The notes below the pieces were generated by a model. The model was given only the letters and a program-made list of their open reading frames with translations. It was not told the origin of the DNA and made no database searches. The position numbers were made by a program, and so were the translations under genes. Shown here in pieces: positions 36,736-62,570 of a DNA stretch of 64,000 bases. The stretch's first letter is position 1. Each line of letters begins with the position of its first letter. Origin of the DNA: a virus; IMG/VR virus record IMGVR_UViG_3300043466_001817, positions 1 to 64,000 of that record; one strand, given 5' to 3'.

Positions 36736-36741
36736 GCACAT

Positions 36742-36769
36742 AGTATACACTGTAATCAGCAGTTGTCAA
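36742..36769 (-). promoter_or_regulatory. Sigma70-like promoter, leaderless start at 36735
   Basis: TTGACA, 16-nt spacer, TATACT, exactly 6 nt to ATG. It directly follows the 3' hairpin of the tmRNA gene. Confidence 0.8.
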
Positions 36770-36776
36770 ATAACAA

Positions 36777-37113
36777 CACCCCTTTCGGGGTGCGGGTCGA
36801 TTCAGATGCGGGAGACCAAACCCCACTGCTTCAAGCAGCCATTGCCATAGGTGCGGCAATCAATTTTTGCAACGGTTTATTTACGACACTTGTTACCCGT
36901 GTCGGGCATCTCCTTCTTCAATACTCTGCGCCAATCGAAGCCAGTTCAGCCCCTAGATCCCGAAGCCTAGGACTTCGGGGATTGCCCCCTGCAAGAGGAC
37001 TTGACTCGCCATCTCTAATAGATTTGCAGAATCTATTTCGGTTAGGCTAATGGAGCCGAGGGGAATCGAACCCCTGTGTTGTTCGCATTTCTATCCGATA
37101 TCAACAATACCAA
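36777..37113 (-). ncRNA. ssrA: Circularly permuted (two-piece) tmRNA
   Basis: On the minus strand the acceptor piece comes first: T arm GGGGTTCGATTCCCC and 3' acceptor strand CGGCTCC with discriminator A at 37051. A spacer (37050-36954) follows, then the coding piece starting GGGGCTGAACTGGCTTCGAT at 36953. GGGGCTG pairs fully with CGGCTCC and gives a third-pair G-U, the alanyl-tRNA synthetase identity element. The tag frame (36884-36831) starts after GTGTC with GTA and reads VNKPLQKLIAAPMAMAA then TGA, the stop lying in a small hairpin. CGCA/TGCG can form the joining helix. The end is hairpin CACCCC-GAAA-GGGGTG (36792-36777). Function: rescue of stalled ribosomes and tagging for proteolysis. 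CCA is not encoded. tRNA-Pro lies 1 nt upstream. Confidence 0.87.
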
Positions 37114-37187
37114 TTAGGTAGAATGGATTTGAACCATCAACCTTCTCGACCCAAACGAGACGCGCTACCAAATTGCGCTACTACCTA
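37114..37187 (-). tRNA. tRNA-Pro (anticodon TGG)
   Basis: Acceptor TAGGTAG/CTACCTA pairs completely. D stem GCGC, anticodon stem TCTCG/CGAGA around loop TTTGGGT, and T loop TTCAAAT. Discriminator A, no encoded CCA. It directly precedes the tmRNA acceptor piece in the same orientation. Confidence 0.9.
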
Positions 37188-47770: not shown

Positions 47771-49864
47771 ATGCTGAGATTCAAATCATACCTAGTCGAA
47801 GACTTTGACGTACAAATTTTAATTCTTGAAGGAAAAGCCCAACACCAAGTTGTTAAACAGTTTGGGCCAAAAATTTTAGAACTAATGCAAAGAGATCAGG
47901 GGAGACTCGGTGAGGCTGGCGATCTTCCAGGAACTTTGCATTATGAAAAAATCAAAGATCAAGAAGGACATGGAACACCAGAACACATGTCCAATTACAT
48001 TTTAAAGCACATGGGGATTCCCGAAGCCCCAAGTTATTTGAATATCAGCAAACCAGAAGATGCAAATACTTGGAATCAGCATGTAAATTGGATGTTGACA
48101 AGATATGCTCAAGGCGGACAAGGAGTTGGTAAGGGTGGTATTCAAAGATTAGAAGATATTCAATATAGAGCATTACCAGCATTGGCCAAATTTCACAAAT
48201 TGACCAAAGAAGGAAAATTAAATGCATCTTCTTTGGCAAAGTGGAAGCATTTGACTGACATGGAAGATGCTTTGCAAAATGCAGATCCATTGAATGCAGA
48301 AGGCGTAGATCCAGATGAATACACAGTTCATGGTGAAAATGAGCATTGGACGGTTGTAACTCCACATACGGCAGAAGCAGCATGTTCATTGGGCCACGGA
48401 ACAAACTGGTGTACTACATCGGGGGCTTTTGAGCAATATAATGAACAGGGCCCATTACACATTGCAATTCCAAAGAAACCATCACATAAAAATGAGAAAT
48501 ATCAATTACATATAGAATCAAATCAATTCATGGATGAAGGTGATGAGCCAGTTTCAAAAGAACAGTTCTTGAATACACATAAATCAAGACCATTCCCAAC
48601 AAGTATTTCTGCACCTGCAAAAACTAAGTTTAATCTTTCTGCAGAACATTTCAATGAAGAAGAAATGGATCATATACTTAAAACAAACACTACAGCGGCA
48701 CTTCGCATTGGTCTAGGCGAACATATTAGCAAACCACGTGTAATGGAATACTTAAAAACTTCAAGACCTCGTGATATTGATAATGTAGCAAGAGTACTTA
48801 GTCAAACAAAACATATTCAAAAAGAAGATGTTGATTATATTTTCAATAATTTTAAAGGACATCACTCTGGTACAGGCGAATTTGGCCCACATGTCATTAA
48901 TGCATTTTTGGGTAAAAACTTTGTTGATATGCTTCCTGGTCACAAAGGAAAAACAAATTATGATGAGCATATTACACCAGAACATTTAAAAAATGCATAT
49001 GAGTATTCAATATCTAAAGATGCAGATTTTGAAACTGCAAAGAAACTTAAAGAAAAAATAACAAGTCACCCAAATGTACCAGAAGATGTTCTTGAACATG
49101 CTCGTTCAATTAGAAACCATTCAGCATATGCAAATCCAAGAACTACAGCAAAACAAATTGAACAATTTTTTGAAGAAGAAAAAGCAAATCCAAATAAAGA
49201 AACTCATAATGCTAGAAATACAATGGTTTTACAAAATGCTGTAAGAAATCCAAATTTCCCACAGCATATGTTTGAATCAATAATTAATTACGACCAACTT
49301 CCAAAGAGACAATCGACTTATTCATTACGATTTGATAATCGTAATGAATACGATTTTCATGGAATAAATGTATTCGATGCAGAAATGAAACAATTAAGAA
49401 ATTCTGTACTTCAAAATCCTTCATTGTCGGATAAACACATACACAAAGTTCTTGATACTCCATCATTGTTTAAAACTGAAAACGAGCATGCAGATGCACT
49501 GAGATCAATAATTTTTAATCCTTCAGCGACACCAAAACATATAGTAAAAGCAATAGAAACCGCACCAGTGGATATAAACAGTTCTTCAGTTAAAAAGAAC
49601 AAACACAGTTTTACTCATACTGTTCTTGACAAATACAATGCCCAAAGTAAAGGAGTCGTTCCTGAAGAAGTTTTTGATGCTCTTGTACGAAATGAAACTG
49701 GGATGTATGGAACTCTTGGTTCTTTAATAAAACACAGTCAATTTACTGATAAACATGCTGATGAATTGATGAAAAAATTTGAAGGAAATCAATTTGTTCA
49801 AGATGAAATTATCAAACAAATGAATTCAAAAAAACAGCAGCCAATAACCCCGAGCCAATACTGA
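47771..49864 (+). CDS. Large capsid-targeted-type protein with HEAT/LRV-like repeats
   Basis: A 697-residue protein. The N-terminus MLRFKSYLVEDFDVQ fits the capsid-targeting pattern with L-V-E as cleavage site. Near residues 195-260 is a conserved phage domain: EHWTVVTPHTAEAACSLGHG, then TNWCTTSGAFEQYNEQGPLH and KYQLHIESNQFMDEGDE. Residues about 300-690 are helical repeats of 25-35 residues (LQNPSLSDKHIHKVLDTPSL, FNPSATPKHIVKAIETAP), LRV/HEAT-like. It ends PITPSQY, like its neighbours end (T-P/Q-S-H-Y). Possibly an injected effector; unproven. Confidence 0.7.
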   Translation: MLRFKSYLVEDFDVQILILEGKAQHQVVKQFGPKILELMQRDQGRLGEAGDLPGTLHYEKIKDQEGHGTPEHMSNYILKHMGIPEAPSYLNISKPEDANTWNQHVNWMLTRYAQGGQGVGKGGIQRLEDIQYRALPALAKFHKLTKEGKLNASSLAKWKHLTDMEDALQNADPLNAEGVDPDEYTVHGENEHWTVVTPHTAEAACSLGHGTNWCTTSGAFEQYNEQGPLHIAIPKKPSHKNEKYQLHIESNQFMDEGDEPVSKEQFLNTHKSRPFPTSISAPAKTKFNLSAEHFNEEEMDHILKTNTTAALRIGLGEHISKPRVMEYLKTSRPRDIDNVARVLSQTKHIQKEDVDYIFNNFKGHHSGTGEFGPHVINAFLGKNFVDMLPGHKGKTNYDEHITPEHLKNAYEYSISKDADFETAKKLKEKITSHPNVPEDVLEHARSIRNHSAYANPRTTAKQIEQFFEEEKANPNKETHNARNTMVLQNAVRNPNFPQHMFESIINYDQLPKRQSTYSLRFDNRNEYDFHGINVFDAEMKQLRNSVLQNPSLSDKHIHKVLDTPSLFKTENEHADALRSIIFNPSATPKHIVKAIETAPVDINSSSVKKNKHSFTHTVLDKYNAQSKGVVPEEVFDALVRNETGMYGTLGSLIKHSQFTDKHADELMKKFEGNQFVQDEIIKQMNSKKQQPITPSQY

Positions 49865-49886
49865 TATGAAAAATTTTAAACAATTT
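49845..49886 (+). repeat. Gene-junction repeat, copy 1
   Basis: 42-nt direct repeat spanning the end of one gene (encoding T-P-S-Q-Y-stop), the spacer GAT and the next gene's first seven codons (MKNFKQF). It differs from copy 2 at three positions. Confidence 0.85.
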
Positions 49887-50378
49887 ATCATCGAAGCCAA
49901 CGAACTGGCAAGAATCGAACACAAAAAATCGCCAGCTCACCACTCACACCCAATGGGTCAATTTTTGCAATTCATGCGTGATGAACTTCCAAACATTCAA
50001 GTGGATGATTCTGTAGCGCATGGAATGTACAAGAAAGAATTGGATTCTTATCTTGATACATTGATGGGAGAAGATCCAAAACATTTTGATAATCTTCACA
50101 AGGAACTCACCACCGACGAAGAAGATGGAAGCACCAGAAGAAGAGATTTGTTTGATGTTCTTCTCCATGTTACTGGAGAGGCAAAGGAAAGAGCATATAA
50201 AAAACTTGTTCAAGTACACAACCCAAGAGCATGGGAGACTCATCTTGATGATTTAAACGATGTCAGAGAAAGAGTCAAGAACCACATTGACGAGAAGGCT
50301 TCGGCAATGATAAAGTCAAGAACAAAAGATAATCCAAAATTCAGTCATATCGAATCTACAACCGATATAGAAATTTGA
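49866..50378 (+). CDS. Capsid-targeted-type internal protein
   Basis: A 170-residue helical protein starting MKNFKQFIIEANELARIEHK, a near match to the T4 internal-protein leader with I-I-E as cleavage site. The body is charged and helical (FLQFMRDELPNIQVDDSVAH, HLDDLNDVRERVKNHIDEKA). It is 1 nt after the preceding stop. Probably packaged in the head and injected or retained; cargo function unknown. Confidence 0.7.
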   Translation: MKNFKQFIIEANELARIEHKKSPAHHSHPMGQFLQFMRDELPNIQVDDSVAHGMYKKELDSYLDTLMGEDPKHFDNLHKELTTDEEDGSTRRRDLFDVLLHVTGEAKERAYKKLVQVHNPRAWETHLDDLNDVRERVKNHIDEKASAMIKSRTKDNPKFSHIESTTDIEI

Positions 50379-50385
50379 GGATAAC

Positions 50386-51024
50386 ATGAAAAGTTTTAAA
50401 CAATTTCTAACTGAAGAAGCAGAAGAATCTTTTGATGGTGGAAAGCCATTCAAAAGCAGAATCATTCGCAGACCAACAGCACAATCAATAGACCCGGCTT
50501 TCAGAGCCCTTGATCTATCGACTGAATATGCAAATTTTCCATCTGACCAATCGGCTACCGAGAGATATGTCAATGTAGCCAAAGAAATTCATAAACTTGG
50601 GTCAAGTGAAAATAAAAATGAAAGAGAATATTACAACTGGTGGATGGATGTTGTTGAAGATCCAGGATTAAGGAACAGGGACAAAATCAGAGAATTAAGA
50701 AAAATTTCTGGATATTTGGTAGCAGCCAAGCGCGGAGAACTGTTCCCAGCAACAATCACACAGGACGCAACAGAGTTGAAACCAAGAAAATTAAACTTAC
50801 CCACAACCCTTTTCAAAGATCCAGAACAAAGAAAGAAGCCGGGTGGAAAATTAGTTCCTCTTTCTGGCGAAGCAGAGGAACTTCACACAGCATTGGGTAA
50901 CATACCCCATTACAGAGAAGTTCTTGAAAGACCAGAGCAAACCACCATCATTCCATCAGCATCGGTCAAGAGCAAAATTTTGGATATTACCAGACCATTC
51001 CATGTAACCCCAAGCCATTATTGA
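50386..51024 (+). CDS. Capsid-targeted-type internal protein
   Basis: A 212-residue protein starting MKSFKQFLTEEAEESFDGGK (L-T-E site). Body: TEYANFPSDQSATERYVNVA, EREYYNWWMDVVEDPGLRNR, then a basic C-terminal half (TELKPRKLNLPTTLFKDPEQ). The end HVTPSHY matches its neighbours. The ribosome site is weak (GAGGATAAC). Cargo role unknown. Confidence 0.7.
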   Translation: MKSFKQFLTEEAEESFDGGKPFKSRIIRRPTAQSIDPAFRALDLSTEYANFPSDQSATERYVNVAKEIHKLGSSENKNEREYYNWWMDVVEDPGLRNRDKIRELRKISGYLVAAKRGELFPATITQDATELKPRKLNLPTTLFKDPEQRKKPGGKLVPLSGEAEELHTALGNIPHYREVLERPEQTTIIPSASVKSKILDITRPFHVTPSHY

Positions 51025-51046
51025 TATGAAAAATTTTAAACAATTT
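51005..51046 (+). repeat. Gene-junction repeat, copy 2
   Basis: 42-nt repeat covering the codons for T-P-S-H-Y-stop, GAT and ATGAAAAATTTTAAACAATT. One mismatch to copy 3, three to copy 1. Confidence 0.88.
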
Positions 51047-51505
51047 TTAGCAGAGAGAAATTTTAGCCCGACCGACAACGATGAAGTAAGCGATGTGGAT
51101 TTCTATGGGGAACACACAAAATTATCCCCTGAAGATTACGGAAATTTTATCAAATCTTTGACTGATAAGTTTGCTACGATAGAAAAAGATTTCAATGATT
51201 CTCCCCTTTCCCGTGAAGATTATGATTATCTACGTGATATGCAGGGGGGACACCAAAGAGAACTTGATTACCACATAACAAACCCACATATCACGGATGA
51301 ACATTTACATCATGCCGTTCCTCATTTGTTGAATCACAATTTCAAGAGTACAGTAGAAAATTTAGATATTCCGTGGTCTGTAATGAAACCCCATGCAGAG
51401 ATGGCGATGGTGGCTTTCCCCGACAAGAAGAATATTAGAGCATTCAATGCCAGAGAAGAAATTGAAAAGGGTAAGGCTCCCTCTGTAACCCAAAGCCATT
51501 ATTGA
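51026..51505 (+). CDS. Capsid-targeted-type internal protein
   Basis: A 159-residue protein starting MKNFKQFLAERNFSPTDNDE (L-A-E site, the closest match to T4 internal-protein leaders). Body: YGNFIKSLTDKFATIEKDFN, YHITNPHITDEHLHHAVPHL. The latter resembles one repeat of the 697-residue protein at 47771. It ends SVTQSHY. Likely virion-internal. Confidence 0.7.
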   Translation: MKNFKQFLAERNFSPTDNDEVSDVDFYGEHTKLSPEDYGNFIKSLTDKFATIEKDFNDSPLSREDYDYLRDMQGGHQRELDYHITNPHITDEHLHHAVPHLLNHNFKSTVENLDIPWSVMKPHAEMAMVAFPDKKNIRAFNAREEIEKGKAPSVTQSHY

Positions 51506-51527
51506 TATGAAAAATTTTAAACAATTT
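51486..51527 (+). repeat. Gene-junction repeat, copy 3
   Basis: 42-nt repeat, 41 of 42 positions equal to copy 2. It covers codons for T-Q-S-H-Y-stop, GAT and the MKNFKQF start of the next gene. Confidence 0.88.
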
Positions 51528-51728
51528 ATCACAGAAAATTATGATGTCTACCTAGACATGCCCCATACCAAAAAATTCAGGGCTCTTATCACAATGGTAG
51601 ACAAGGATGGGAAGGAACACAATTTTCCAATAGGATCAGATGATAATGTCAGAGAGGCAGCACATAAGACAATCAAAGGGCTATCTGACAAAGGATTCAC
51701 CCTTAAGGATGTAGAATACGAATTTTAA
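51507..51728 (+). CDS. Small capsid-targeted-type protein
   Basis: A 73-residue protein starting MKNFKQFITENYDVYLDMPH (I-T-E site). After the leader only about 60 residues remain (KKFRALITMVDKDGKEHNFP; AAHKTIKGLSDKGFTLKDVE), an alpha/beta mini-domain. Last of the chain joined by the repeated junction. Confidence 0.65.
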   Translation: MKNFKQFITENYDVYLDMPHTKKFRALITMVDKDGKEHNFPIGSDDNVREAAHKTIKGLSDKGFTLKDVEYEF

Positions 51729-51733
51729 ACGGA

Positions 51734-51739
51734 TAAATA
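51734..51739 (+). promoter_or_regulatory. T4-like late promoter GATAAATA
   Basis: TAAATA ending exactly 5 nt before the ATG at 51745. Confidence 0.75.
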
Positions 51740-51744
51740 ACTTT

Positions 51745-52188
51745 ATGAACTACCTAACAAATTATTACAAAAATTTATGCGAACAACTAGAAATGCAACT
51801 TGCCCTATTGGAAGCCAAAGTAAAGGATTCCAAGAAGAAGAGCAAGGGCAAGAAACTTGACCCAGTAGGCAAGGAAGATGGTGACATCGACAATGATGGT
51901 GATGAGGATGAAACTGATGGATACCTAGCCAACCGTCGTAAGGCAATCGGTAAGGCAATGAAAAATAAAAAGAAAGTTGTCAAGGAAGAAACTTCAACAG
52001 GAGTAGAGGGAGACTACGAAGGGGAGATGTCAAAAGGGGAACTCCAATACACAATTCAAAATGCCCAAGAAATTTTAGATCAACTCAAGGATGATGATGA
52101 ACTAGAAGCATGGGTACAGAGCAAGATTACAAAGGCTTCTGACTATATTTCTACAGTAAAAGATTATATGGCTGGTAGGAATAAGTAA
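51745..52188 (+). CDS. Acidic late protein with Asp-rich loop, prohead-core-like
   Basis: A 147-residue protein. A helical start (MNYLTNYYKNLCEQLEMQLA) is followed by a Lys-rich patch and KKLDPVGKEDGDIDNDGDED, an EF-hand-like acidic loop common in T4-like head-region proteins. LANRRKAIGKAMKNKKK and an acidic helical C-terminus follow. It may act in the prohead core. ATG is fixed by the late box. Confidence 0.68.
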   Translation: MNYLTNYYKNLCEQLEMQLALLEAKVKDSKKKSKGKKLDPVGKEDGDIDNDGDEDETDGYLANRRKAIGKAMKNKKKVVKEETSTGVEGDYEGEMSKGELQYTIQNAQEILDQLKDDDELEAWVQSKITKASDYISTVKDYMAGRNK

Positions 52189-52657
52189 GGGGGTAATACG
52201 AGGGATAGAGTAAGGAAGATTGGGTAAAAAATATTGAAGAATTTTAAGAAAATTTGGAGTTAGACCCACACTCTCTAACACCCTTTAAACCTCTTATAAG
52301 CCATCCAGAGCCCGTCCAGCGCACAAAAGGCCCCCGGAGTCATGTCCGAGGGCCTTGTCTCTAATAGCCTTATAGGCGGTCAAGCAATTACTATCAAGAT
52401 TTTGACAAATTTTAGAGAATTTTTGACAATATTAGCACAACCCTGTCCAGAGTTCTCCATACCGTCCGCCATATGAGCAATGTAAGGGTTCTTATCGACA
52501 ATATCTTTAATTATTTTGACACTTGGGCTACATGCCGTCCGAGCACCGTCCAGATAACGTCCAGGGCCCGTACCGTCCGAGAATATATTAAAATTTTTGA
52601 GAATATTATAACCTACCTACCTAGGGGCCCTACACCCTGATAGTAGATAAAAAAATT
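52189..52657. other. 469-nt gene-free region rich in GTCC motifs
   Basis: No convincing gene on either strand. It holds at least nine GTCC-centred motifs (CCGTCCGAG, CCGTCCAG, CGTCCAGG), AT-rich islands and one palindrome at 52327-52356. The same GTCC words flank the six hairpin elements at 53-62.6 kb, so this stretch marks the border to the GC-rich block and may be regulatory or replicative. Confidence 0.6.
52327..52356 (+). terminator. Strong inverted repeat downstream of late cluster
   Basis: AAGGCCC/GGGCCTT with an inner palindrome CGGA-GTCATG-TCCG, followed by TTGTCTCT. It lies 139 nt after the last + strand late gene; a probable terminator. Confidence 0.6.
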
Positions 52658-52894
52658 TTAGATTCTTCCAGATCCCGTCCCGCTGGATCCCGTCCACAAA
52701 TTTTCAATAATTCTTGGAACGTCTGATATCTGAACAATTCCCAGACCCACCAGCGCACCGATAACCGTGGCGCTCACGAGTCCGATAACCCCCACAGTTC
52801 TCCAGAGAACAGCCCAGACGAGTCCGATAACCCCCCATGCCCCATAACTAGATCTACGGTACACACTAGGGCGATAGGGGGTTATCGGTCGCAT
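52658..52894 (-). CDS. Small membrane protein with repeated GVIGLV segments
   Basis: A 78-residue protein (MRPITPYRPSVYRRSSYGAW). Residues 20-55 are hydrophobic with two similar segments, GVIGLVWAVLWRT and GVIGLVSATVIGAL, encoded by repeats containing GTCCGATAACCCCC. Charged ends. ATG 52894 has an AGGGGA site and a promoter 12 nt upstream; an in-frame ATG at 52927 falls before the promoter. Function unknown. Confidence 0.6.
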   Translation of the reverse strand: MRPITPYRPSVYRRSSYGAWGVIGLVWAVLWRTVGVIGLVSATVIGALVGLGIVQISDVPRIIENLWTGSSGTGSGRI

Positions 52895-52906
52895 GAACAG
52901 TCCCCT

Positions 52907-52934
52907 AGTATACACCACAGGACCCATAAGTCAA
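52907..52934 (-). promoter_or_regulatory. Sigma70-like promoter of gene 52894
   Basis: TTGACT, 16-nt spacer, TATACT, 12-nt leader with AGGGGA. Confidence 0.7.
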
Positions 52935-53025
52935 GTAATGGCAAGGACTTACGATCCAGTGAAGACGTCCAGTTCTCTGGAGAAATGAATTAAATTTAAT
53001 ACCGTCCAGCCCGTCCCGTCCGCGA

Positions 53026-53090
53026 CTACTATCAGGGAGCGCAAATATTATGCAAAAAATCAAAGTTCCTCTGAGGAACTTTGATAGTAG
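53026..53090 (-). repeat. Hairpin element E1 (CTACTATCA family)
   Basis: Boxes CTACTATCA (53026) and TGATAGTAG (53082-53090) enclose the stem ATCAAAGTTCCTC/GAGGAACTTTGAT. Read on the minus strand it follows the VWA gene and gives a hairpin with TTTTTT behind it, so it can terminate transcription. One of six copies with different stems. Confidence 0.88.
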
Positions 53091-53113
53091 CCGGTATGTA
53101 TACAATAGAACAA

Positions 53114-53148
53114 CCCCCGGGCCTGGCTCTCTCCTTCCAGTCCGGGGG
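53114..53148 (-). terminator. Terminator-like hairpin after VWA gene
   Basis: CCCCCGG/CCGGGGG stem just behind the stop at 53167, before element E1. This hairpin-then-E order recurs in the other cassettes. Confidence 0.65.
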
Positions 53149-53166
53149 CGTTCCTACGGGGATTAC

Positions 53167-55269
53167 TTACTTGCAGGGCAAGCTGTAGATGGCTTCCGTC
53201 CCCCGCTTGAGGGGCTGGCCCGCCACGATGTCCACATACCGGGAGAGGAACACGCGGCTACCGCTGCGCTTCGCCATCGTCTTGACGAAGGTGTTCTTGA
53301 CCTTCGTGAAGGTTCCGCTGTCCACGATGGCATCCTCGTCCTTGACGATCTTCGGGGTCTTGACGAGGAAGTACGCATCGTACCCGTGGAAGATCTCGTC
53401 GTGGACAACGATGCAGCCGTCCTTGTACGCCTCCTTCGCAGCAGCGAACCGGGGAGAGGCGGCGAGGTTCTGATACGAACCCCTCTCCTTCGCGGCCACG
53501 CAGTACTGGTAGAAGAACGATTCGGTCAGGGCGTTGGGGCCAACCATCATCCCGACGAGGCGGGCGTTGAACTTCTCACGCAGGGAGTGCAGCATGATGC
53601 CGACGATCTCGTTGCCCAAGCACGAAGTCATCTCGCGGGAAGGCATCCGGGTGATCGTTCCCGTGATGTTGTTCTGCACCGTCAGCACCCCGTCCTGACC
53701 GACGCTGTACATGGAGTAGATATCGTCGCCCTTCGCGCCACGGATGCCGATGCCGTTGGGCGAACCGTCCGTGATGTGCATGAGCGTGGGGATCTGAATG
53801 TTGTTGGCCTTGATCCACTCCGCGACGAACTGGGACGCGATGGCGACGGCCTCCACCGTGGGCGTACCGCCCAACCGGATCGCAGCGGGCCGCTTGTTCT
53901 GAACGATGGACTCGTAGAGGTAGGCCATGACCTTCTCGCGCTTGTCCGCACCGTCCCGCGACGAGGCAATGTTGATGAGGCGGGCCTCGTTGAGCGTGAG
54001 GGTGTTCATCTGCTGTCCGACGATCTTCGGCTCAAACATCCTGCTGAAGTCGCTGTAGTACTTCGTGGGGTTCTTCTTGCGCCACTCATCGAACTTGCCG
54101 CCGTGGAACGCGGCCTGATTCACTTCGGTGTAGCCGAACACCTCAAAGGGGATCTTCGCCTTCTCGCAGAACCAAACCAACTGGCAGACCTGAAGGAAGC
54201 AGTCCGACAGAGAGTGCTGCATCGACCCGCTGAAGTCCATGAGGAACACGATGCCGTGGTTCTTGCCGTCCTGCTTGACGATCTTGGAAAGGAAGATATC
54301 GTCGTGGGTGCGGTACTGGTGGAGGCGGTCAAGGTTCAACTGGCCCGTCTGCTTGGGCCGCTCCTTGCGGATCGCGTCCGCTGCCTTGCGGCGCTCAAAC
54401 TGCATGACGAGCTGCCGAACGAACGAATCGGAGTCCTTGACGAACTGGCGGTAGCCGGTCAGATCGACCTGCGGGTACGAGGTCTGCTTCTCAAACTCGT
54501 CAAAGATGTAATCCGTGGGGACGATGGCAGCGTTGACATCCTCCAACATGGGGATGACAACCGTGGGCGAGTGAACCTTCGGGCCGGACTTCTTGCCGTG
54601 GCCCGCGATGTCAGTCTCCACGATCCCGTCCTGCATGGCTTCGGTGCCGATCGCGTCGGCCTGACCCTGCTGCTGCTCTGCCTTCTCGCGGGCAGCCTGC
54701 ATCTGCGGCGACTGGTAGATGATCTTGGCGAGGGCGATGCACTCCTCGAAAGTCTCGCAACCATCGACCGCATCCACGATGGCCTGCTCGTTCTCGTCCA
54801 TCGGAACGGTGACGAAACCGGGAACGCCCCACTTGAAGTGGATGTTCACCTTGTTGACGATGTTCGCGTCGGTCAAGTCCATCTTGGCGATGCCGAACAT
54901 ATCCAAGTCGTTGATCTCCTTGTAGCCCAAGAAGAAGTCGCGGCGGGTGCCGGGGAACTTGTCCTTCATCTTCTTCTCAATGCGGACATCCTCAATGACA
55001 TTGGCGATGCGCTGAAGCAACTCGATGTTGAACCCCTCCGCTTCGGCCTGATCGAACAGCACCTTCGACTGCTCGTAGGGAGTCCACAGGGCGTGGCTGA
55101 TCTCATGGGCGACGAGCATGGTCTGCACCGTTTCGGAAACCTTCCAGACGGGCATGACGAGGTGGCGGTTCTCAACATCGAACGACGCGGTGGCGGCGTT
55201 GGCATCGAAGGAGAACGAAATGTTTTCGGAGGCGAGGGCGCGAGCGAAGATGGAGAGAGAAGTGTTCAT
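53167..55269 (-). CDS. HExxH metallopeptidase-like / von Willebrand A protein (CobT-like)
   Basis: A 700-residue protein. Near residue 58 VAHEISHALWTPYE holds an HExxH zinc motif, followed by NVIEDVRIEKKMKDKFPG, the pattern of T4-like cyanophage 'peptidase'. A charged linker (180-260) leads to a VWA domain with MIDAS DFSGSMQHS near 343 and DGSPNG further on. VWA proteins of this type pair with MoxR/CobS AAA ATPases; the partner lies just upstream (56997-55735). The pair may remodel a protein or insert metal. ATG 55269 is chosen since a -10 box ends 6 nt upstream and the longer frame spans it. Confidence 0.82.
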   Translation of the reverse strand: MNTSLSIFARALASENISFSFDANAATASFDVENRHLVMPVWKVSETVQTMLVAHEISHALWTPYEQSKVLFDQAEAEGFNIELLQRIANVIEDVRIEKKMKDKFPGTRRDFFLGYKEINDLDMFGIAKMDLTDANIVNKVNIHFKWGVPGFVTVPMDENEQAIVDAVDGCETFEECIALAKIIYQSPQMQAAREKAEQQQGQADAIGTEAMQDGIVETDIAGHGKKSGPKVHSPTVVIPMLEDVNAAIVPTDYIFDEFEKQTSYPQVDLTGYRQFVKDSDSFVRQLVMQFERRKAADAIRKERPKQTGQLNLDRLHQYRTHDDIFLSKIVKQDGKNHGIVFLMDFSGSMQHSLSDCFLQVCQLVWFCEKAKIPFEVFGYTEVNQAAFHGGKFDEWRKKNPTKYYSDFSRMFEPKIVGQQMNTLTLNEARLINIASSRDGADKREKVMAYLYESIVQNKRPAAIRLGGTPTVEAVAIASQFVAEWIKANNIQIPTLMHITDGSPNGIGIRGAKGDDIYSMYSVGQDGVLTVQNNITGTITRMPSREMTSCLGNEIVGIMLHSLREKFNARLVGMMVGPNALTESFFYQYCVAAKERGSYQNLAASPRFAAAKEAYKDGCIVVHDEIFHGYDAYFLVKTPKIVKDEDAIVDSGTFTKVKNTFVKTMAKRSGSRVFLSRYVDIVAGQPLKRGTEAIYSLPCK

Positions 55270-55275
55270 GCGCTC

Positions 55276-55303
55276 ATTGTAGCAGGTCTGTAGGTGAATG
55301 CAA
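55276..55303 (-). promoter_or_regulatory. Sigma70-like promoter, leaderless start at 55269
   Basis: TTGCAT, 16-nt spacer, TACAAT, exactly 6 nt to ATG. Confidence 0.78.
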
Positions 55304-55365
55304 CTACTAGGATCGGAAAATGGCAATTCTTTTTTGCGTCCGATAAGGGACCGGCCCCGTCCAGG

Positions 55366-55434
55366 CTACTATCAGGCCGTCAAGCAAATAACACAAAATT
55401 CTCAAAGATTCCTCAGAGGAATCTTTGATAGTAG
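55366..55434 (-). repeat. Hairpin element E2 (CTACTATCA family)
   Basis: CTACTATCA (55366) and TGATAGTAG (55426-55434) around the stem TCAAAGATTCCTC/GAGGAATCTTTGA. It lies downstream (minus strand) of the 73-residue gene and upstream of the VWA promoter. It is followed on the minus strand by GGACGGGGCCGG and TTATCGGACGCAAAA. Confidence 0.88.
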
Positions 55435-55445
55435 CCCCTGCCTGG

Positions 55446-55479
55446 AAGATCCCCTGCCCCTTTCGGAGCAGGGGATCTT
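55446..55479 (-). terminator. Terminator-like hairpin after gene 55495
   Basis: 12-bp stem AAGATCCCCTGC/GCAGGGGATCTT directly behind the stop, 12 nt before E2. Confidence 0.75.
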
Positions 55480-55494
55480 GTCCTCTGAACAGCA

Positions 55495-55716
55495 TCAGAC
55501 CGTGGCCGGTGCGATCAGGGAGGTCAGGTCGTAGACCCCCTTGCTGACCGCGCTCTTGTGATCCTTCAGCACCCAAGTGGGGATGCCCTTCATGTTGATC
55601 GCCTGGGCGACGGCCAGCAGGTCGGCCTTGCTGAAGCTGTCGGTGGGGCGGTTGTGAACCTCCGCGTAGTGCTTGGCGGCGGCGACGAAACGGTTGCGCT
55701 TATTGAGGTACGGCAT
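55495..55716 (-). CDS. Small hypothetical protein in CobS-like operon
   Basis: A 73-residue basic/helical protein (MPYLNKRNRFVAAAKHYAEV; FSKADLLAVAQAINMKGIPT). AAGGAG precedes the ATG, 18 nt after the stop of the AAA ATPase gene, so it is its operon partner. The helix-turn pattern (ADLLAVAQAINMKGIPTWVL) hints at DNA binding; unproven. Confidence 0.65.
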   Translation of the reverse strand: MPYLNKRNRFVAAAKHYAEVHNRPTDSFSKADLLAVAQAINMKGIPTWVLKDHKSAVSKGVYDLTSLIAPATV

Positions 55717-55734
55717 TGTCAGAATCTCCTTGTG

Positions 55735-56997
55735 TTAGGCGTTGAGAGCGTAGGAAGTGTCAGTCGGGGCAGCGACAGGCTGCGCCTTCTTGTCCGCACC
55801 CTCCGGCATCGGCAGGATGGTGGGGTCGATCTTGGTGTAGAGGTCGAAGAAAGCCTTCTGCGTGGCGGGGTCGAACCGCGTCAGCGTCAACTTGATCGCC
55901 TTCTCCTTGTCCGCGAAGATGGCGAACGCCTTGCAGACCTCCTCCAAGCGGCGGGTCGTGATGATGTCATCCAAGCCGCCCTCCTTGAAGCCCAAGCGGA
56001 TCGTTTCCGCCCACTTGGTGAGGTACTGGGCGAACTCCTTGTCCTCGCGCCCGTAAGCCTTCATCTTGCGGATGATGATGCGGGCCTCCACGGTGCGATC
56101 CGCGTAGTCCTGCTCAAACCAGTACGAGAAGCGGTCGAGGAAAGCCTCGTTCATCACTCGCGTCCCGACGAAGCGGTCGGACTCGCCCTTGCCCTTCGTG
56201 TTGGCGGTGGCGACGGCGTTGAAGCCGACAGACGGGCGGACATACTGCCCGATCTTCTTGAGGTAGATGCCCTTGCCCTCAAGGACGGGCTGGAGGCACA
56301 TCATCCGCTCCGAACCCAAGTCGATCTCGTCCAACAGCAGGATGGCACCCTTCTGCATGGCCTGAACGACGGGGCCGTAGACGAACTTGGTTTCGCCGTT
56401 GACGAGGCGGAAGCCGCCCAACAGATCGTCCTCGTCGGTTTCGGAGGTGATGTTGACGCGGACGCACTCGCGGGCGTTGGCCGCGCAGATCTGCTCAATC
56501 ATCGTGGTCTTGCCGTTGCCCGACAGACCCGTGATGTAGATGGGCGCGAACTGCTTGGAGGCGAGGATGGTGGCGATGGTGTCGTAGTGGCCCCACGGAA
56601 CGAAGGTGTCGTTCTTGGAGGGAACGAGCGAGACATCGGACATGGGGAGGACGAGGTTGAAGTTGTTGGTGTTGCTGTTCATGGGCGTAATCTTATCACA
56701 AGTTTCGGTCGGAGTCAAGTCCACGGAAGGAAGATTCTCAACAATCTTTTGGGGAAATTCGAGGTTCAGGCGGGCACCGGCCACTTCGACTTCGGGGATG
56801 CTGTACAGGCCGCGACCCAGGCGACGAGCCTGATCAGTCACGAGCCAAGCGGGCAGGCACGAGTACGAGACCCGGTGCGTCTGCTTGCAGAGGTTGAGTG
56901 CGGTCAGGCACTCGTCACGGGTGAAAGAGGTGCGAAGCCCGAACGACAGGGCGAGGGATTCGAGGAAGTGCTGCTTACGAAGATCGATGCTGTTCAT
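55735..56997 (-). CDS. cobS: CobS/MoxR-like AAA+ ATPase, with an internal start at 56682
   Basis: A 420-residue protein if started at 56997, or 315 if started at 56682. The AAA core has YITGLSGNGKTTMIEQ (Walker A, near residue 156 of the long form), ITSETDEDDLLGGFRLVNGE, ILLLDEIDLGSERMM (Walker B near 222), and ATANTKGKGESDRF (sensor 1), close to the cyanophage CobS consensus. The 105-residue extension (MNSIDLRKQHFLESLALSFG) is unlike CobS. Each ATG has its own promoter (TACAAT 6 nt and TAAGAT 7 nt upstream), so two protein forms are likely. It probably works with the VWA protein downstream. Cobalt chelation itself is not demonstrated. Confidence 0.85.
   Translation of the reverse strand: MNSIDLRKQHFLESLALSFGLRTSFTRDECLTALNLCKQTHRVSYSCLPAWLVTDQARRLGRGLYSIPEVEVAGARLNLEFPQKIVENLPSVDLTPTETCDKITPMNSNTNNFNLVLPMSDVSLVPSKNDTFVPWGHYDTIATILASKQFAPIYITGLSGNGKTTMIEQICAANARECVRVNITSETDEDDLLGGFRLVNGETKFVYGPVVQAMQKGAILLLDEIDLGSERMMCLQPVLEGKGIYLKKIGQYVRPSVGFNAVATANTKGKGESDRFVGTRVMNEAFLDRFSYWFEQDYADRTVEARIIIRKMKAYGREDKEFAQYLTKWAETIRLGFKEGGLDDIITTRRLEEVCKAFAIFADKEKAIKLTLTRFDPATQKAFFDLYTKIDPTILPMPEGADKKAQPVAAPTDTSYALNA
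56690..56718 (-). promoter_or_regulatory. Internal promoter for short CobS-like form
   Basis: TTGACT, 17-nt spacer, TAAGAT, 7 nt to the in-frame ATG at 56682. It lies within the coding sequence of the long form. Confidence 0.68.
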
Positions 56998-57003
56998 GAG
57001 AAC

Positions 57004-57031
57004 ATTGTAATCTATGAGGCGAAGATTGCAA
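57004..57031 (-). promoter_or_regulatory. Sigma70-like promoter, leaderless start at 56997
   Basis: TTGCAA, 16-nt spacer, TACAAT, exactly 6 nt to ATG. Confidence 0.75.
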
Positions 57032-57110
57032 GACCAATCTTCCATTATTCTCAAGATTGTCTCCAGGTCCGATAACCGGCCCCAGAGTCTGGTGCTGTCC
57101 GTTCTGTCCA

Positions 57111-57178
57111 CTACTATCAGGGAAATAATATAATATCTCGGAAAAAATCAAAGACCGCCTGGCGGTCTTTGATAGTAG
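57111..57178 (-). repeat. Hairpin element E3 (CTACTATCA family)
   Basis: CTACTATCA (57111) and TGATAGTAG (57170-57178) around the stem ATCAAAGACCGCC/GGCGGTCTTTGAT. On the minus strand the hairpin is followed by TTTTTTCC. It is downstream of gene 57598-57254. Confidence 0.9.
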
Positions 57179-57190
57179 TGGCAAATAAAA

Positions 57191-57214
57191 ACCCCCAGCC
57201 TAGCAACTGGGGGT
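57191..57214 (-). terminator. Rho-independent terminator after gene 57254
   Basis: ACCCCCAG/CTGGGGGT stem, on the minus strand followed by TTTTATTTG, then element E3. Confidence 0.85.
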
Positions 57215-57253
57215 CGGAGGAACATCCTCCTTGAAGAAAGAAACGAACCTGAA

Positions 57254-57598
57254 TCAGCCCTTCAGGTACTCCGAAGCCGGGCCACTCTTGCAGCAGCCGG
57301 TACCATCGTTGTAGTAGGACTTCTTGCAGTCCTTGTTCTCGTTGTGGCACTTCTCCCACAGAACATCAACCTCGCGGTGCAGTTGCTCACGGGAGCCTTC
57401 CATCTCGCGCTTGAGTTCCGCAATCTTCTCGTTGCAGGAACGACCGCAGGCAAGCACCTCGTCAATTACATACCGCTCGCTGGCCTCCGTGTAGGTACGG
57501 ATGCTGCGAATCTTGTTGTCGATGTAGTTCTTGACGATCAGGCCGCAAGCAAGCACACCGAAGGCGACGGCAAAGATCAAAGCGTAGTTCTCGTTCAT
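57254..57598 (-). CDS. Membrane-anchored Cys-rich coiled-coil protein
   Basis: A 114-residue protein. An N-terminal membrane helix (YALIFAVAFGVLACGLIVKN, residues 5-24) is followed by a coiled coil (NEKIAELKREMEGSREQLHR) and a Cys-rich end (KCHNENKDCKKSYYNDGTGC then CKSG). The general layout resembles an i-spanin or other periplasmic protein, but nothing else supports this. It has a perfect AAGGAG and leadered promoter. Confidence 0.65.
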   Translation of the reverse strand: MNENYALIFAVAFGVLACGLIVKNYIDNKIRSIRTYTEASERYVIDEVLACGRSCNEKIAELKREMEGSREQLHREVDVLWEKCHNENKDCKKSYYNDGTGCCKSGPASEYLKG

Positions 57599-57622
57599 CT
57601 GAATCTCCTTGTTGTTGGTGGT

Positions 57623-57650
57623 ATTATACCACCTGGTTGTGGGTTGTCAA
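57623..57650 (-). promoter_or_regulatory. Strong sigma70-like promoter, leadered
   Basis: TTGACA, 16-nt spacer, TATAAT, 24 nt to ATG at 57598 with AAGGAG in the leader. One of few leadered promoters in this block. Confidence 0.85.
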
Positions 57651-57657
57651 GTCTGAA

Positions 57658-57741
57658 TAGGACGGGTGAGATTCGAACTCACGGTGCATAAAGCGGGCAA
57701 TTATAAGTCGCCTGCTGCTCTCCATCGCAGCACGCCGTCCT
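57658..57741 (-). tRNA. tRNA with TAT anticodon and long variable arm (tRNA-Ile by anticodon)
   Basis: Acceptor AGGACGG/CCGTCCT, D arm GCTGC/GCAGC, anticodon stem GGCGA/TTGCC around CTTATAA, T arm GTGAG-TTCGAAT-CTCAC, discriminator A. The variable region has 13 nt (CGCTTTATGCACC), a class II size normally seen in Leu, Ser and Tyr tRNAs, so identity by anticodon may mislead. Confidence 0.8.
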
Positions 57742-57858
57742 GTGTGAAGCCTTTTTACGGATGCTCCTTTGTCCGTGCATTCGCAGAATGCCTCTGTGCG
57801 GTTTTATGACTACCGCCAAAACTTATAATATAATCTGCATTGTGTTTCTCAATAGTGC

Positions 57859-57886
57859 ATTGTAGCACCTCTTTGTTCTGTGTCAA
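57859..57886 (-). promoter_or_regulatory. Sigma70-like promoter of the TAT-anticodon tRNA
   Basis: TTGACA, 16-nt spacer, TACAAT, about 118 nt before the tRNA. The leader (57742-57858) has no convincing gene. Confidence 0.75.
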
Positions 57887-57888
57887 GG

Positions 57889-57962
57889 CGTTTCCGGGGG
57901 GACTCGAACCCTCAACCTGCCGCTTAGAAGGCGGCTGCTCTATCCGGTTGAGCTACGGAAAC
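57889..57962 (-). tRNA. tRNA-Arg (anticodon TCT)
   Basis: Acceptor GTTTCCG/CGGAAAC, anticodon stem CCGC/GCGG around CTTCTAA, T loop TTCGAGT, discriminator G. Confidence 0.94.
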
Positions 57963-58055
57963 ATTCGGAAGGAGTACTCTACGGTCTAGGGAATCCCATT
58001 TTCCGACTTTTCGTCCTTCCTTATTGGATGAACTTGAAGAAGTCCATCTCGTTAG

Positions 58056-58140
58056 TGGGATTGGTGGGACTTGAACCCACAAGACTTTTGAGGTCGGCAG
58101 ATTTTGAGTCTGCTGCGTATGCCGATTCCGCCACAATCCC
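58056..58140 (-). tRNA. tRNA-Leu (anticodon CAA)
   Basis: Class II tRNA. Acceptor GGGATTG/CAATCCC, anticodon stem GCAGA/TCTGC around CTCAAAA, long variable arm, T loop TTCAAGT, discriminator A. Confidence 0.94.
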
Positions 58141-58149
58141 GATGCGCCC

Positions 58150-58178
58150 ATTATATCACACTATGGGCGGGTTGTCAA
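58150..58178 (-). promoter_or_regulatory. Strong promoter of tRNA-Leu
   Basis: TTGACA, 17-nt spacer, TATAAT, 9 nt to the tRNA 5' end. The initial sequence GGGC-CATC is like that of the tRNA-Lys promoter. Confidence 0.85.
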
Positions 58179-58431
58179 CCCTATCTTCTAGGGAGAATTT
58201 TTCTTCAATTTCCTCGAAGAATTCCGAATTGGCTCGGACCACCTGCTCATGGAGCCGGTCAACGTTGAGGCATTGGGCTGCGTTGTCCACCTCATCGAAG
58301 TACTGATTGATCAGTTCCTTCGGCGGGTTGCCGTTGCCATGGAGAATGTGTTCCATGATGCGGTCTGCGACAATGACCACGCGGTCATAAGCCTGGAGCG
58401 AGCTGATGTAGTGCTGTTCTGAAATCTTCAT
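58156..58431 (-). CDS. Hypothetical helical protein downstream of tRNA-Lys
   Basis: A 91-residue protein (MKISEQHYISSLQAYDRVVI; NQYFDEVDNAAQCLNVDRLH), all-helical and acidic. ATG 58431 has AGGAGG and lies 15 nt after tRNA-Lys, so both share a transcript; longer frames would run through the tRNA. Its end overlaps the tRNA-Leu promoter. Confidence 0.62.
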   Translation of the reverse strand: MKISEQHYISSLQAYDRVVIVADRIMEHILHGNGNPPKELINQYFDEVDNAAQCLNVDRLHEQVVRANSEFFEEIEEKFSLEDRVDNPPIV

Positions 58432-58445
58432 AGTGTCCTCCTGAA

Positions 58446-58518
58446 TGCCTCCGGTGGGGTTCGAACCCACGACCAATAGATTAAAAGTCTACTGCGCTAC
58501 CAACTGCGCTACAGAGGC
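58446..58518 (-). tRNA. tRNA-Lys (anticodon TTT)
   Basis: Acceptor GCCTCTG/CGGAGGC, anticodon stem TAGA/TCTA around CTTTTAA, T loop TTCGAAC, discriminator A. Confidence 0.94.
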
Positions 58519-58527
58519 GAGATGCCC

Positions 58528-58556
58528 ATTATATCCGATGGGCGCGGTGAAGTCAA
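58528..58556 (-). promoter_or_regulatory. Strong promoter of tRNA-Lys and downstream gene
   Basis: TTGACT, 17-nt spacer, TATAAT, 9 nt to the tRNA 5' end. Confidence 0.85.
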
Positions 58557-58557
58557 G

Positions 58558-58953
58558 TCAGTCCTTGTCGTTGTTTCCCAGTTCCTCTTCGATGTCGTTG
58601 ATGTACTCCCGCCGGTCGTGGGGGAAGTGCTTGCGCTCCAACTCGCCCGCGAACTCGTCGTAGGTCATGGACATCATGTCGCCCAAGAGCATCATGAACG
58701 CCGCGTCACCTGCCGTGACATCCTTCGGACGCTCGTTGCGCTCCTTCGCATCCGCGAGTTCCTGGGTCGCGTAGGCCATCGCAGCGGAGGCGACGAGGCG
58801 GAGCTTCTGATCCTTGAAGAAGGTCGGGTTCCGCATCACCAGTTCCACGAGGCTGTAGATCACCTCGTGGATGCTGGGCTTGAACTGCTCCATCATGGGG
58901 TGCGGCTCGTTGTTGTCGAAGAAGTTGCTGAAGTTGTTCGTCGGGTCAGGCAT
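58558..58953 (-). CDS. Hypothetical helical protein, 131 residues
   Basis: A 131-residue mostly helical protein (MMEQFKPSIHEVIYSLVELV; RLVASAAMAYATQELADAKE; end DIEEELGNNDKD). It overlaps the upstream gene by 8 bases. No family recognised. Confidence 0.62.
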   Translation of the reverse strand: MPDPTNNFSNFFDNNEPHPMMEQFKPSIHEVIYSLVELVMRNPTFFKDQKLRLVASAAMAYATQELADAKERNERPKDVTAGDAAFMMLLGDMMSMTYDEFAGELERKHFPHDRREYINDIEEELGNNDKD

Positions 58954-59794: not shown

Positions 59795-59854
59795 GCGGTA
59801 GCATCCAAGAAAACGAAATATATTTTGCGTCCCATAACGTCCAGGTGGTCCGGG

Positions 59855-59917
59855 CTACTATCAGGCGGCGGCCGGTCCTATAAGAAATCAAAAATGCCTG
59901 GGCATTTTTGATAGTAG
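59855..59917 (-). repeat. Hairpin element E4 (CTACTATCA family)
   Basis: CTACTATCA (59855) and TGATAGTAG (59909-59917) around ATCAAAAATGCC/GGCATTTTTGAT. On the minus strand it is followed by GGACG and GTTATGGGACGCAAAA, like E2. Confidence 0.88.
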
Positions 59918-60298: not shown

Positions 60299-60327
60299 AT
60301 TGTACCTGGGTTGCAGGCGAATGTCAA
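60299..60327 (-). promoter_or_regulatory. Consensus sigma70 promoter, leaderless start at 60292
   Basis: TTGACA, 17-nt spacer, TACAAT, exactly 6 nt to ATG. Confidence 0.85.
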
Positions 60328-60623
60328 GCCCAGTTCAGCATCTTCTCCGTCTTGGGCGAGAATCCCATGATCCCGGTGATCTTGTCCTCACCGATCAGGA
60401 TCCAGTCCTTCTTGGTGATGTCGAAGGCGCAGATGTAGCCTTCGGTGGTGTGACGGAGGCCCTTCGGCAGATTGCCGCCGAGGTGACGGATGAAGGTCGC
60501 GTCCGTAGTGACCTCACGGGCAGCGGGAGTGCCGTCCTTCTTCGTGAAAGTGACCATCACGGTGTCGTTGTTGGAGAGCGAAACGCGGAGGACGGTAGCG
60601 AGAGGCAGGTCGGTGGTGTTCAT
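60324..60623 (-). CDS. WYL_2/DUF2693-like Sm-fold protein
   Basis: A 99-residue beta-barrel-like protein. VMVTFTKKDGTPAAREVTTD, then GYICAFDITKKDWILIGEDK, matches the small SH3/Sm-like family DUF2693 (WYL_2), found in phages and th­ought to bind nucleic acid or act as regulator. ATG exactly 6 nt from promoter. Its last codons overlap the next promoter. Confidence 0.62.
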   Translation of the reverse strand: MNTTDLPLATVLRVSLSNNDTVMVTFTKKDGTPAAREVTTDATFIRHLGGNLPKGLRHTTEGYICAFDITKKDWILIGEDKITGIMGFSPKTEKMLNWA

Positions 60624-61282: not shown

Positions 61283-61340
61283 CTACTATCAGGCGGCGTC
61301 CAATAAAATCAGAGGGCCCTAGAGGGCCCTCTGATAGTAG
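61283..61340 (-). repeat. Hairpin element E5 (CTACTATCA family)
   Basis: CTACTATCA (61283) and TGATAGTAG (61332-61340) around ATCAGAGGGCCCT/AGGGCCCTCTGAT. On the minus strand the hairpin is followed by TTTTATTGGACG. Confidence 0.9.
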
Positions 61341-61786: not shown

Positions 61787-62407
61787 TTACTCCGCCTTTC
61801 CCCTGATGATGATCCACAGAAGCGCCTGCATGTCGGCGGCGGGCATGTTCCACGAATCGGCCATGAGCCGAACGGCAGCGGCGATGGCACGGTACTCAAC
61901 GGCGCTGGGCGCATCCTTCGGCTGGCCAGCGTACTTCGACTTCGGCCCGTAGGTGAGGCCGGCAGCGCGGCACATCCAAATGTCGATCACGACCGCATCG
62001 GGGTCGCCGCCGATGGCACGGGCGAACGCGTTCGTCTTCGGCCCGCGCAGGCCGTCGAAGCCTTCGCGCTGGCAACGGTCCGCAGCGTCCAGCGCCGAAC
62101 GCAGGCCCGCAGGGCGCTGGCCCATAGCGTACTCGGCGGCCTTGCGCTTGTTGAGCGCCCAAGTAACGCGGGGCGAGAATGCCGACACGACGCTAGCGGA
62201 CACTTCGAGCGTCCACGACGGCGCGATGGTGCAGAGCGATTCCGCGAACGCGTTCGCGTCGCAGTACCATGTGCCCGCCCGCTTGATGTCGGCGGGCGTG
62301 GCCGACGCCAGCAGGGTACGGAAGCGGCCTTCGGCCTCAACGCGGACGGCGGACATGCGGGCGAGGGTAGCGGCGGACGGCTGACGGGTGGTGGTGGTGG
62401 TGATCAT
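61787..62407 (-). CDS. HhH/DNA-glycosylase-like hypothetical protein (DUF7178-like)
   Basis: A 206-residue helical protein. VVSAFSPRVTWALNKRKAAE near 90, then GLRGPKTNAFARAIGGDPDA and VVIDIWMCRAAG near 125-150, match a phage/bacterial family with a helix-hairpin-helix DNA-glycosylase-type fold ('GPKT..F...I.GD...V.VD.W'). The Asp in VVIDIW takes the place of the glycosylase catalytic Asp. It may act on damaged or modified bases. ATG exactly 6 nt from a -10 box. Confidence 0.66.
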   Translation of the reverse strand: MITTTTTRQPSAATLARMSAVRVEAEGRFRTLLASATPADIKRAGTWYCDANAFAESLCTIAPSWTLEVSASVVSAFSPRVTWALNKRKAAEYAMGQRPAGLRSALDAADRCQREGFDGLRGPKTNAFARAIGGDPDAVVIDIWMCRAAGLTYGPKSKYAGQPKDAPSAVEYRAIAAAVRLMADSWNMPAADMQALLWIIIRGKAE

Positions 62408-62517: not shown

Positions 62518-62570
62518 CTACTATCAGGCCGTCCAATAAAATCAAGATCGCCGGGCGATCTTGATAGTAG
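62518..62570 (-). repeat. Hairpin element E6 (CTACTATCA family)
   Basis: CTACTATCA (62518) and TGATAGTAG (62562-62570) around ATCAAGATCGCC/GGCGATCTTGAT. On the minus strand the hairpin is followed by TTTTATTGGACGG, the same tail as in E5. Confidence 0.9.

Follow-up and report, generated by a model that had tools for sequence, protein, structure and literature searches.

The region analyzed lies in a virus record of 94,095 bases, itself a fragment, of which a stretch of 64,000 nt (hereafter, the window) was studied. According to the list of open reading frames (ORFs), a plus-strand ORF (51745–52188) and a minus-strand gene (53167–55326) flank a convergent intergenic region (52189–53166, set by the ORF list and the GC step), which we call the border. 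GC content by position is 38% at 51–52 kb, then 44%, and reaches 60% at 53–54 kb, so that the compositional border proposed in the first-pass annotation, with the plus-strand ORF ending at 52188 and a GC-rich minus-strand block beyond, was recovered. In the 94-kb record, GC content drops again to 44% at 64–66 kb and is lower still beyond. The block to the right of the border is thus a GC-rich island of 11 kb on the minus strand (about 53–64 kb), and the gene block to its left is AT-rich and plus-strand. The island has about 58% GC versus about 38% for the genome, a contrast that is retained across the clade.

The same annotation had described dense CCGTCC and CGTCCAG words at 52189–53025. When this segment was compared with 200 dinucleotide shuffles, its minus strand was found to contain ten copies of GGACGG, the complement of CCGTCC (0.30 expected, shuffle maximum 4), five of CTGGACG, the complement of CGTCCAG (0.06 expected, shuffle maximum 1), and three of GTTATCGG (0.01 expected). 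The plus strand has none of the first two and one of the third. The border words therefore exceed chance, far above background, yet they do so on one strand only. In addition, GTCCGATAACC occurs three times in the 94-kb record (52780, 52822, and 57067), 0.05 copies being expected for the 64-kb window, and GGAC occurs 18 times in 52180–53170, four of them inside a small ORF.

The record has matches to T4-type DNA polymerase and ribonucleotide reductase, to a gp32-like protein, and to two baseplate wedge proteins, which identifies a T4-like phage. The protein encoded at 53.2–55.3 kb matches phrog_459 ("peptidase") and its neighbor matches phrog_249 ("porphyrin biosynthesis"); we take these to be a VWA-like and a CobS-like protein, respectively. 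A blastn search of positions 50000–56000 against 50,697 phage records returned 135 records, and the 20 matches listed all fall inside the plus-strand ORF 51745–52188. With the VWA-like protein, tblastn returned 463 records, all below 60% identity and for the most part cyanophages. The relatives compared here (L-numbered loci) are IMG/VR contigs, 15 of which encode the VWA-like protein. The GC step is visible in 13 of these 15, L017 and L018 ending too early, and L006 aligns across the border without interruption (98.4% identity, 6,487 bases). Because the border is kept in this way in relatives from other metagenomes, it is neither an assembly chimera nor a fresh recombination scar, and the scar suggested earlier is disfavored.

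Several other features of the record were observed. Five proteins start with MK[NST]FKQF[IL] (window 49866, 50386, 51026, and 51507 on the plus strand, and record 73805 on the minus strand); the last is a lysozyme-LysM protein (L004:12928–13806; lysozyme by Pfam). This start resembles the capsid targeting sequence found in internal head proteins of T4, and the five proteins may be packaged and injected. L006 (98% identical) lacks about 430 bases at window ~51055–51484, between stretches that match a 46-base repeat near 49845–49890, as if recombination had occurred between repeated MKNFKQF starts. The minus-strand gene at record 67235–68242 (L004:7236–8243) matches phrog_1211 ("2-aminooxy adenylosuccinate synthetase," E 6.4e-63), possibly a PurZ-type enzyme for modified DNA bases. 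ARAGORN reports a doubtful permuted tmRNA (window 36740–37142, minus strand; tag VVNKPLQKLIAAPMAMAA) that overlaps a tRNA-Pro. Within the island, all on the minus strand, the protein at window 61787–62407 has a DUF7178 match over the cut-off (E 3.8e-26), the protein at 60324–60623 has a WYL_2 match below the cut-off (E 0.0015; 19.2 vs. 26.7 bits), which makes it a candidate nucleic-acid-binding regulator, and four tRNA genes lie at 57658–58518, several of them directly behind near-consensus sigma70-like promoters.

Read along the minus strand from the end of gene 53167–55326, the border begins with a terminator-like hairpin within 53105–53158 (RNA fold −28.3 kcal/mol). An armed terminator follows (53026–53090), in which CTACTATC (53090–53083) and GATAGTAG (53033–53026) enclose an inner ATCA..TGAT hairpin with a T-run, and three overlapping GGACGG lie 3' of it (53002–53021). 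Next comes a sigma70-like promoter, TTGACT-16-TATACT (52934–52907; 10/12 consensus match), whose block was found in 13 of the 15 border sequences compared; it is followed by CTGTTCATG and by a CTGTTC-ATG block with the hairpin CCGATAACCCCC...GGGGGTTATCGG (52821–52900). The start codon opens an ORF of 78 aa (52658–52894; MRPITPYRPS...GVIGLV...). The GATAACC words are located in this ORF, behind the promoter: it carries three copies of GTTATCGG (52758–52831; starts at 52831, 52789, and 52765), spaced 42 and 24 nt, two of which are TTATCGGAC. Beyond it on the same strand are the left arm CTACTATCA at 52646, which is unpaired, and, far downstream of it, a partial right arm, GATAGTA (52395; 52389–52646 together), and GGACGG words within AT-rich DNA (52462–52578). 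A GC-rich hairpin flanked by AAAA/TTTT (52326–52357; minus-strand fold −24.7 kcal/mol) could stop transcription arriving from either direction. An Rfam scan of 52000–58600 yielded only three tRNAs at the gathering score and two other matches below it, so a known RNA family was rejected for the border elements.

The inverted copy reported near 52877 is present (52877–52896), and CCGATAACC/GGTTATCGG form a covarying hairpin that adjoins the start codon of the 78-aa ORF. The start block occurs in 13 of the 15 border sequences compared (absent in L016 and L017, with L018 left out) and additionally in L031, L080, and L092. Folded over 97 nt, all 14 sequences have minimum free energies between −39.0 and −47.7 kcal/mol. 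In an alignment of 14 rows (13 distinct), 93.9% of cells are paired, compared with at most 49.1% for slid structures, the hairpin having been derived from the same sequences as those tested, which favors it. Eight of its 19 pairs changed on both sides, a value reached in 0 of 500 shuffles; further pair types, one of five covariation measures, were not above shuffles (245/500). A covariance model found one strong match per border (60.6–90.2 bits) in 18 of 37 sources (16 contigs), with reverse-strand shadows of up to 34.2 bits and at most 21.4 bits elsewhere. It found no strong match in L095–L101, L016, or L017; L017 has a different strong hairpin (−38.8) and L016 only one of −19.5. A switch in which the 5' hairpin arm pairs with the later GTTATCGG copies was also considered and is disfavored, because both arms co-vary in L008 and L009 while the later copy keeps TTATCGG.

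The ORF frame stays open in every one of the 14 sequences (65–127 aa), and the other two frames close after 0–3 and 8–51 codons. Judged pair by pair from dN against dS (W–L007 0.115/0.362; L008–L019 0.064/0.259; L010–L013 0.235/0.348; L012–L020 0.339/0.587; L012–L031 0.224/0.512; L020–L031 0.262/0.294; L014–L012 0.482/0.566), constraint on the predicted protein differs between pairs: some show it clearly, and in two it is weak. The putative product is of membrane type in most relatives: a hydrophobic 19-mer is present in 12 of 14 (mean Kyte-Doolittle 1.92–2.75), and L009 and L011 are without such a segment (0.55 and 0.71). It has no Pfam match at E ≤ 0.1. All 20 Val-Ile-Gly triplets in the border ORFs are encoded GTT-ATC-GG, with GTT used for 31 of the 63 remaining Val and ATC for 29 of the 119 remaining Ile, and GTTAYCGG stands 23 times in phase 0, against 12 in phase 1; these counts leave out the near-duplicate L006, include both L080 and L092, which have the same protein, and come from rows that are related, not independent. 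The GTTATCGG word in this ORF thus seems to be kept as nucleic acid besides protein.

The elements of the border recur throughout the island. CTACTATCA has 13 copies in 94 kb, all at 52.6–62.6 kb, as six inverted pairs and one single copy. The six pairs delimit elements of 53–69 bases, each around a terminator-like hairpin that shares ATC with the left arm. Apart from that of the border, these minus-strand armed terminators lie at 55366–55434, upstream of the 53.2–55.3-kb gene, at 57111–57178, at 59855–59917 with TTATAGGAC inside (59883), and at 61283–61340 and 62518–62570, each with TTATTGGAC inside (61306 and 62539). Among 19 clade sources there are 73 armed elements, 68 of them distinct. 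In 67 of the 68, the inner hairpin uses the arm's ATC; only 41 have at least four T in the eight bases after the hairpin, and 58 have GGAC within 25 nt downstream, versus a 12% background expectation. The ninth arm base pair is A-T in 48 elements, C-G in 11, and not Watson-Crick in nine. The arms are conserved by sequence and the inner stems by pairing. There are 58 different inner 8-mers among the 68, for which reason mobile or REP-like copying of the elements was rejected. The order within island cassettes is a terminator-like hairpin within CTACTATC...GATAGTAG arms, then GGAC words, then promoters, the ATG often standing at the predicted +1; the annotation's observation that the same words recur between hairpin elements and promoters further on is borne out here.

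The core GGAC word is the nine-base TTATNGGAC. The island has eight copies of it against 0.07 expected, every one on the transcribed strand, and the rest of the record has one. Three minus-strand examples illustrate its placement. TTATCGGAC at 55338–55346 is 43 nt upstream of TTGCAT (55303), which is followed by TACAAT and N6-ATG (55269); TTATCGGAC at 57067–57075, coinciding with the third GTCCGATAACC, is 44 nt upstream of the −35 of TTGCAA-16-TACAAT-N6-ATG; and TTATGGGAC at 59829–59837 is 43 nt upstream of TTGCAT (59794), with TATACT-N6-ATG beyond. More generally, the distance of TTATNGGAC upstream of the −35 clusters near 23, 32–36, 42–44, and 52–55 nt, with a period near 10.5 bp. In the record and L006–L078 with duplicates removed, the phasing at 10.5 bp was R = 0.70 for 31 sites whose ATG lies 6–7 bases after the −10 (non-redundant at 75%), and 0.66 for all 42 promoter-like sites scoring at least 9. 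A chosen clade set, non-redundant at 70%, gave R 0.73 for 38 sites (33 chosen loci of 117, plus 52.1–64.05 kb of the record). As common descent gives orthologous promoters the same spacing, every combination of gene class and spacing was also counted once, which left 28 values with a best R of 0.61 (9.5–11.5 bp), matched by 3 of 20,000 uniform random sets (29 chosen loci of 117, plus the same part of the record); for these last two sets, membership in the clade, judged from arms, motif, or CobS-like identity, decided which loci were chosen. The controls gave R 0.10 for GGAC outside the motif (n = 103), 0.06 for TTAT outside it (n = 87), and 0.13 for GGAG (n = 64), so that GGAC alone is not phased to promoters. 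At the VWA-like gene promoter, the spacing jumps by one turn (32–33 nt in seven cases, 43 nt in three); off-phase spacings of 47, 78, and 85 also occur. Such phasing would be expected if an activator bound the DNA there, with TTATNGGAC as its putative site. The regulator-binding array proposed earlier is partly supported, in that TTATNGGAC is restricted to the transcribed strand in the island and helix-phased to the −35; part of the words, however, are codons and hairpin arms.

Many promoter-like sites may give leaderless mRNAs. An ATG starts six bases after the −10 hexamer at 252 of 1,469 promoter-like sites in the record and L006–L078, where overlapping loci on the same contigs mean that some sites are counted repeatedly; each other offset from 0 to 14 accounts for 14–52. 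A −10 signal some 10 bp before the start codon, with no leader, is the mark of leaderless genes; PMC3160421 interprets such signals in this way and describes them as common in Actinobacteria and Deinococcus-Thermus. The border promoter has its ATG some 6 nt downstream of the leaderless offset, so that the border mRNA would carry a very short leader. TTATNGGAC marks a subset of near-leaderless promoters (41 of 205). WhiB was considered as a clue to an actinobacterial host and dropped, the record having no WhiB match.

A scan with the CobS-like protein retrieved 34 loci. At identities of at least 77%, all 17 loci have both arm words and at least one near-leaderless promoter, 16 have complete armed elements (not L082, by the pattern used), and 16 have TTATNGGAC on the transcribed strand (absent in L086, CobS-like 79%). 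No complete element occurs in the five loci at 58–64% (L095–L099), of which four have near-leaderless promoters. Complete elements, TTATNGGAC, and near-leaderless promoters were all absent from the ten loci at 50–54% (L100, L101, and L103–L110) and from L111 and L112 (34–36%). Several viral matches without TTATNGGAC and the 5' hairpin were set aside as unrelated on inspection. A structured pattern scan of genome contigs gave five matches, none with a nested terminator hairpin on inspection and only L116 with a single TTATNGGAC, and a host-genome repeat was rejected on this basis.

The word-rich segment 52189–53025 is thus a conserved, putative control region bordering the GC-rich gene block of a T4-like phage lineage that has not been cultured. 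We lean toward a reading in which regulatory cassettes, with a terminator, in many cases a TTATNGGAC activator-like site, and a promoter, would separate the presumably early genes of the island, the border being the final one in the row. The terminator-like hairpin between the invariant CTACTATC and GATAGTAG arms would end the upstream transcript. GGAC words, in many cases with TTATNGGAC, come next in the cassette; on TTATNGGAC, a DNA-binding activator of phage or host origin may sit on one helix face, at an upstream distance of two to five turns from the −35. From the sigma70-like promoter, transcription would then start at or next to the ATG, producing an mRNA that would be leaderless, and island expression would presumably be early. 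The border cassette itself would drive a small protein with a membrane segment in most relatives, the long hairpin right after the AUG may set translation or stability of its mRNA, and through the extra word copies in the ORF the regulator could act on this gene or be titrated by it. These copies, at distances of 42 and 24 nt, are not whole turns apart throughout, and they suggest another role for the word there, such as feedback or titration. The scheme builds on what can be read directly from the sequences: the enrichment and strand bias of the words, the arms and hairpins, the helical phasing, the covariation, and the conservation of the ORF. A bolder version is possible but doubtful: in an undescribed system, the asymmetric TTATNGGAC would switch on dispersed leaderless early promoters from several helical-turn positions, and the in-ORF copies of the border gene, kept as nucleic acid in two frames, would together with the start-codon hairpin act as a feedback or titration device.

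The arms also invite a reading as recombination cassettes, in which arms and spacers would let relatives swap gene modules and the regulatory words would be passengers; this has been proposed for the promoter early stem-loops (PeSLs) of T4-type phages (Arbiol 2010; Comeau 2014; as cited in PMC4503421), with which the island shares the order of cassette, terminator, and promoter, and identical arms at six island places would suit it. We consider it unlikely, because the inner stems differ, leaving an inter-cassette homology of some 8–9 bases per arm plus loose words, and because the phasing of TTATNGGAC to the −35 is unexpected from recombination alone. Still less probable is that the words act on RNA or are by-products of hairpin arms, codons, and terminator flanks, with no DNA-binding protein: the position of the GATAACC words in a conserved ORF and a covarying hairpin, and of TTATTGGAC directly 3' of several terminator hairpins, would be explained, whereas the 10.5-bp phasing upstream of promoters and the retention of GTTATCGG in two reading frames with fixed codons would not.

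T4 origins, where a promoter makes an R-loop primer, offer a parallel for the replication origin that the annotation had suggested. The border promoter, followed by AT-rich patches at 52.4–52.6 kb between converging transcription units, could make such a primer, and cumulative GC skew lies in a broad low plateau there. However, this plateau extends over 46–55 kb without a sharp turn at the border, in a record that is only a fragment, and the identical cassette type stands at five other places, so that an origin is unsupported and very improbable.

If the favored reading, that of regulatory cassettes, is true, it would provide a sequence-defined handle on early-gene firing in an uncultured T4-like lineage, with a site testable by half- and whole-turn shifts. 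It would also mean that many early mRNAs of a T4-like lineage are leaderless, and that selection acts jointly on the protein, the RNA hairpin, and the DNA sites of a single coding sequence. A literature search, with subscription papers mostly outside its reach, found no earlier description of these elements.

Among known systems, the ESAS/SAS of cluster K mycobacteriophages likewise have inverted repeats, separated by a variable spacer, that recur in intergenic DNA ahead of genes, mostly in one orientation, and ESAS arms are imperfect 17-bp repeats tied to the start-associated sequence (PMC3203893). As far as that description goes, the island elements differ from ESAS in having arms of 8–9 bases around a terminator-like hairpin, upstream of promoters, and are not assigned to them. 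The stoperators of cluster A mycobacteriophages bind repressor and stop elongation; like the island site, theirs is short and asymmetric and is repeated many times over a phage region with one orientation, but the island site is phased to promoters. Class I activator sites (e.g., those of CRP) lie upstream of the −35 and are tolerated at distances one helical turn apart. The spacing of TTATNGGAC, phased near 10.5 bp, appears similar, whereas TTATNGGAC is an asymmetric 9-mer at phage promoters and a putative activator site. On the descriptions available, PeSLs are the nearest known kind: both are repeated intergenic cassettes of T4-like phages that combine a terminator-like stem-loop with a sigma70-like early promoter, predicted in our case. 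In the island, terminator-like hairpins are joined to promoter-like sites (from a consensus scan and comparison, with predicted activity), and the repetition amounts to six complete armed elements in a T4-like genome region. PeSLs are not known to have invariant CTACTATC/GATAGTAG arms, a phased TTATNGGAC, or an ATG at the predicted +1, which the island cassettes carry. These cassettes are best read as probable promoter-terminator units like PeSLs, to which a helically phased, activator-like site has been added.
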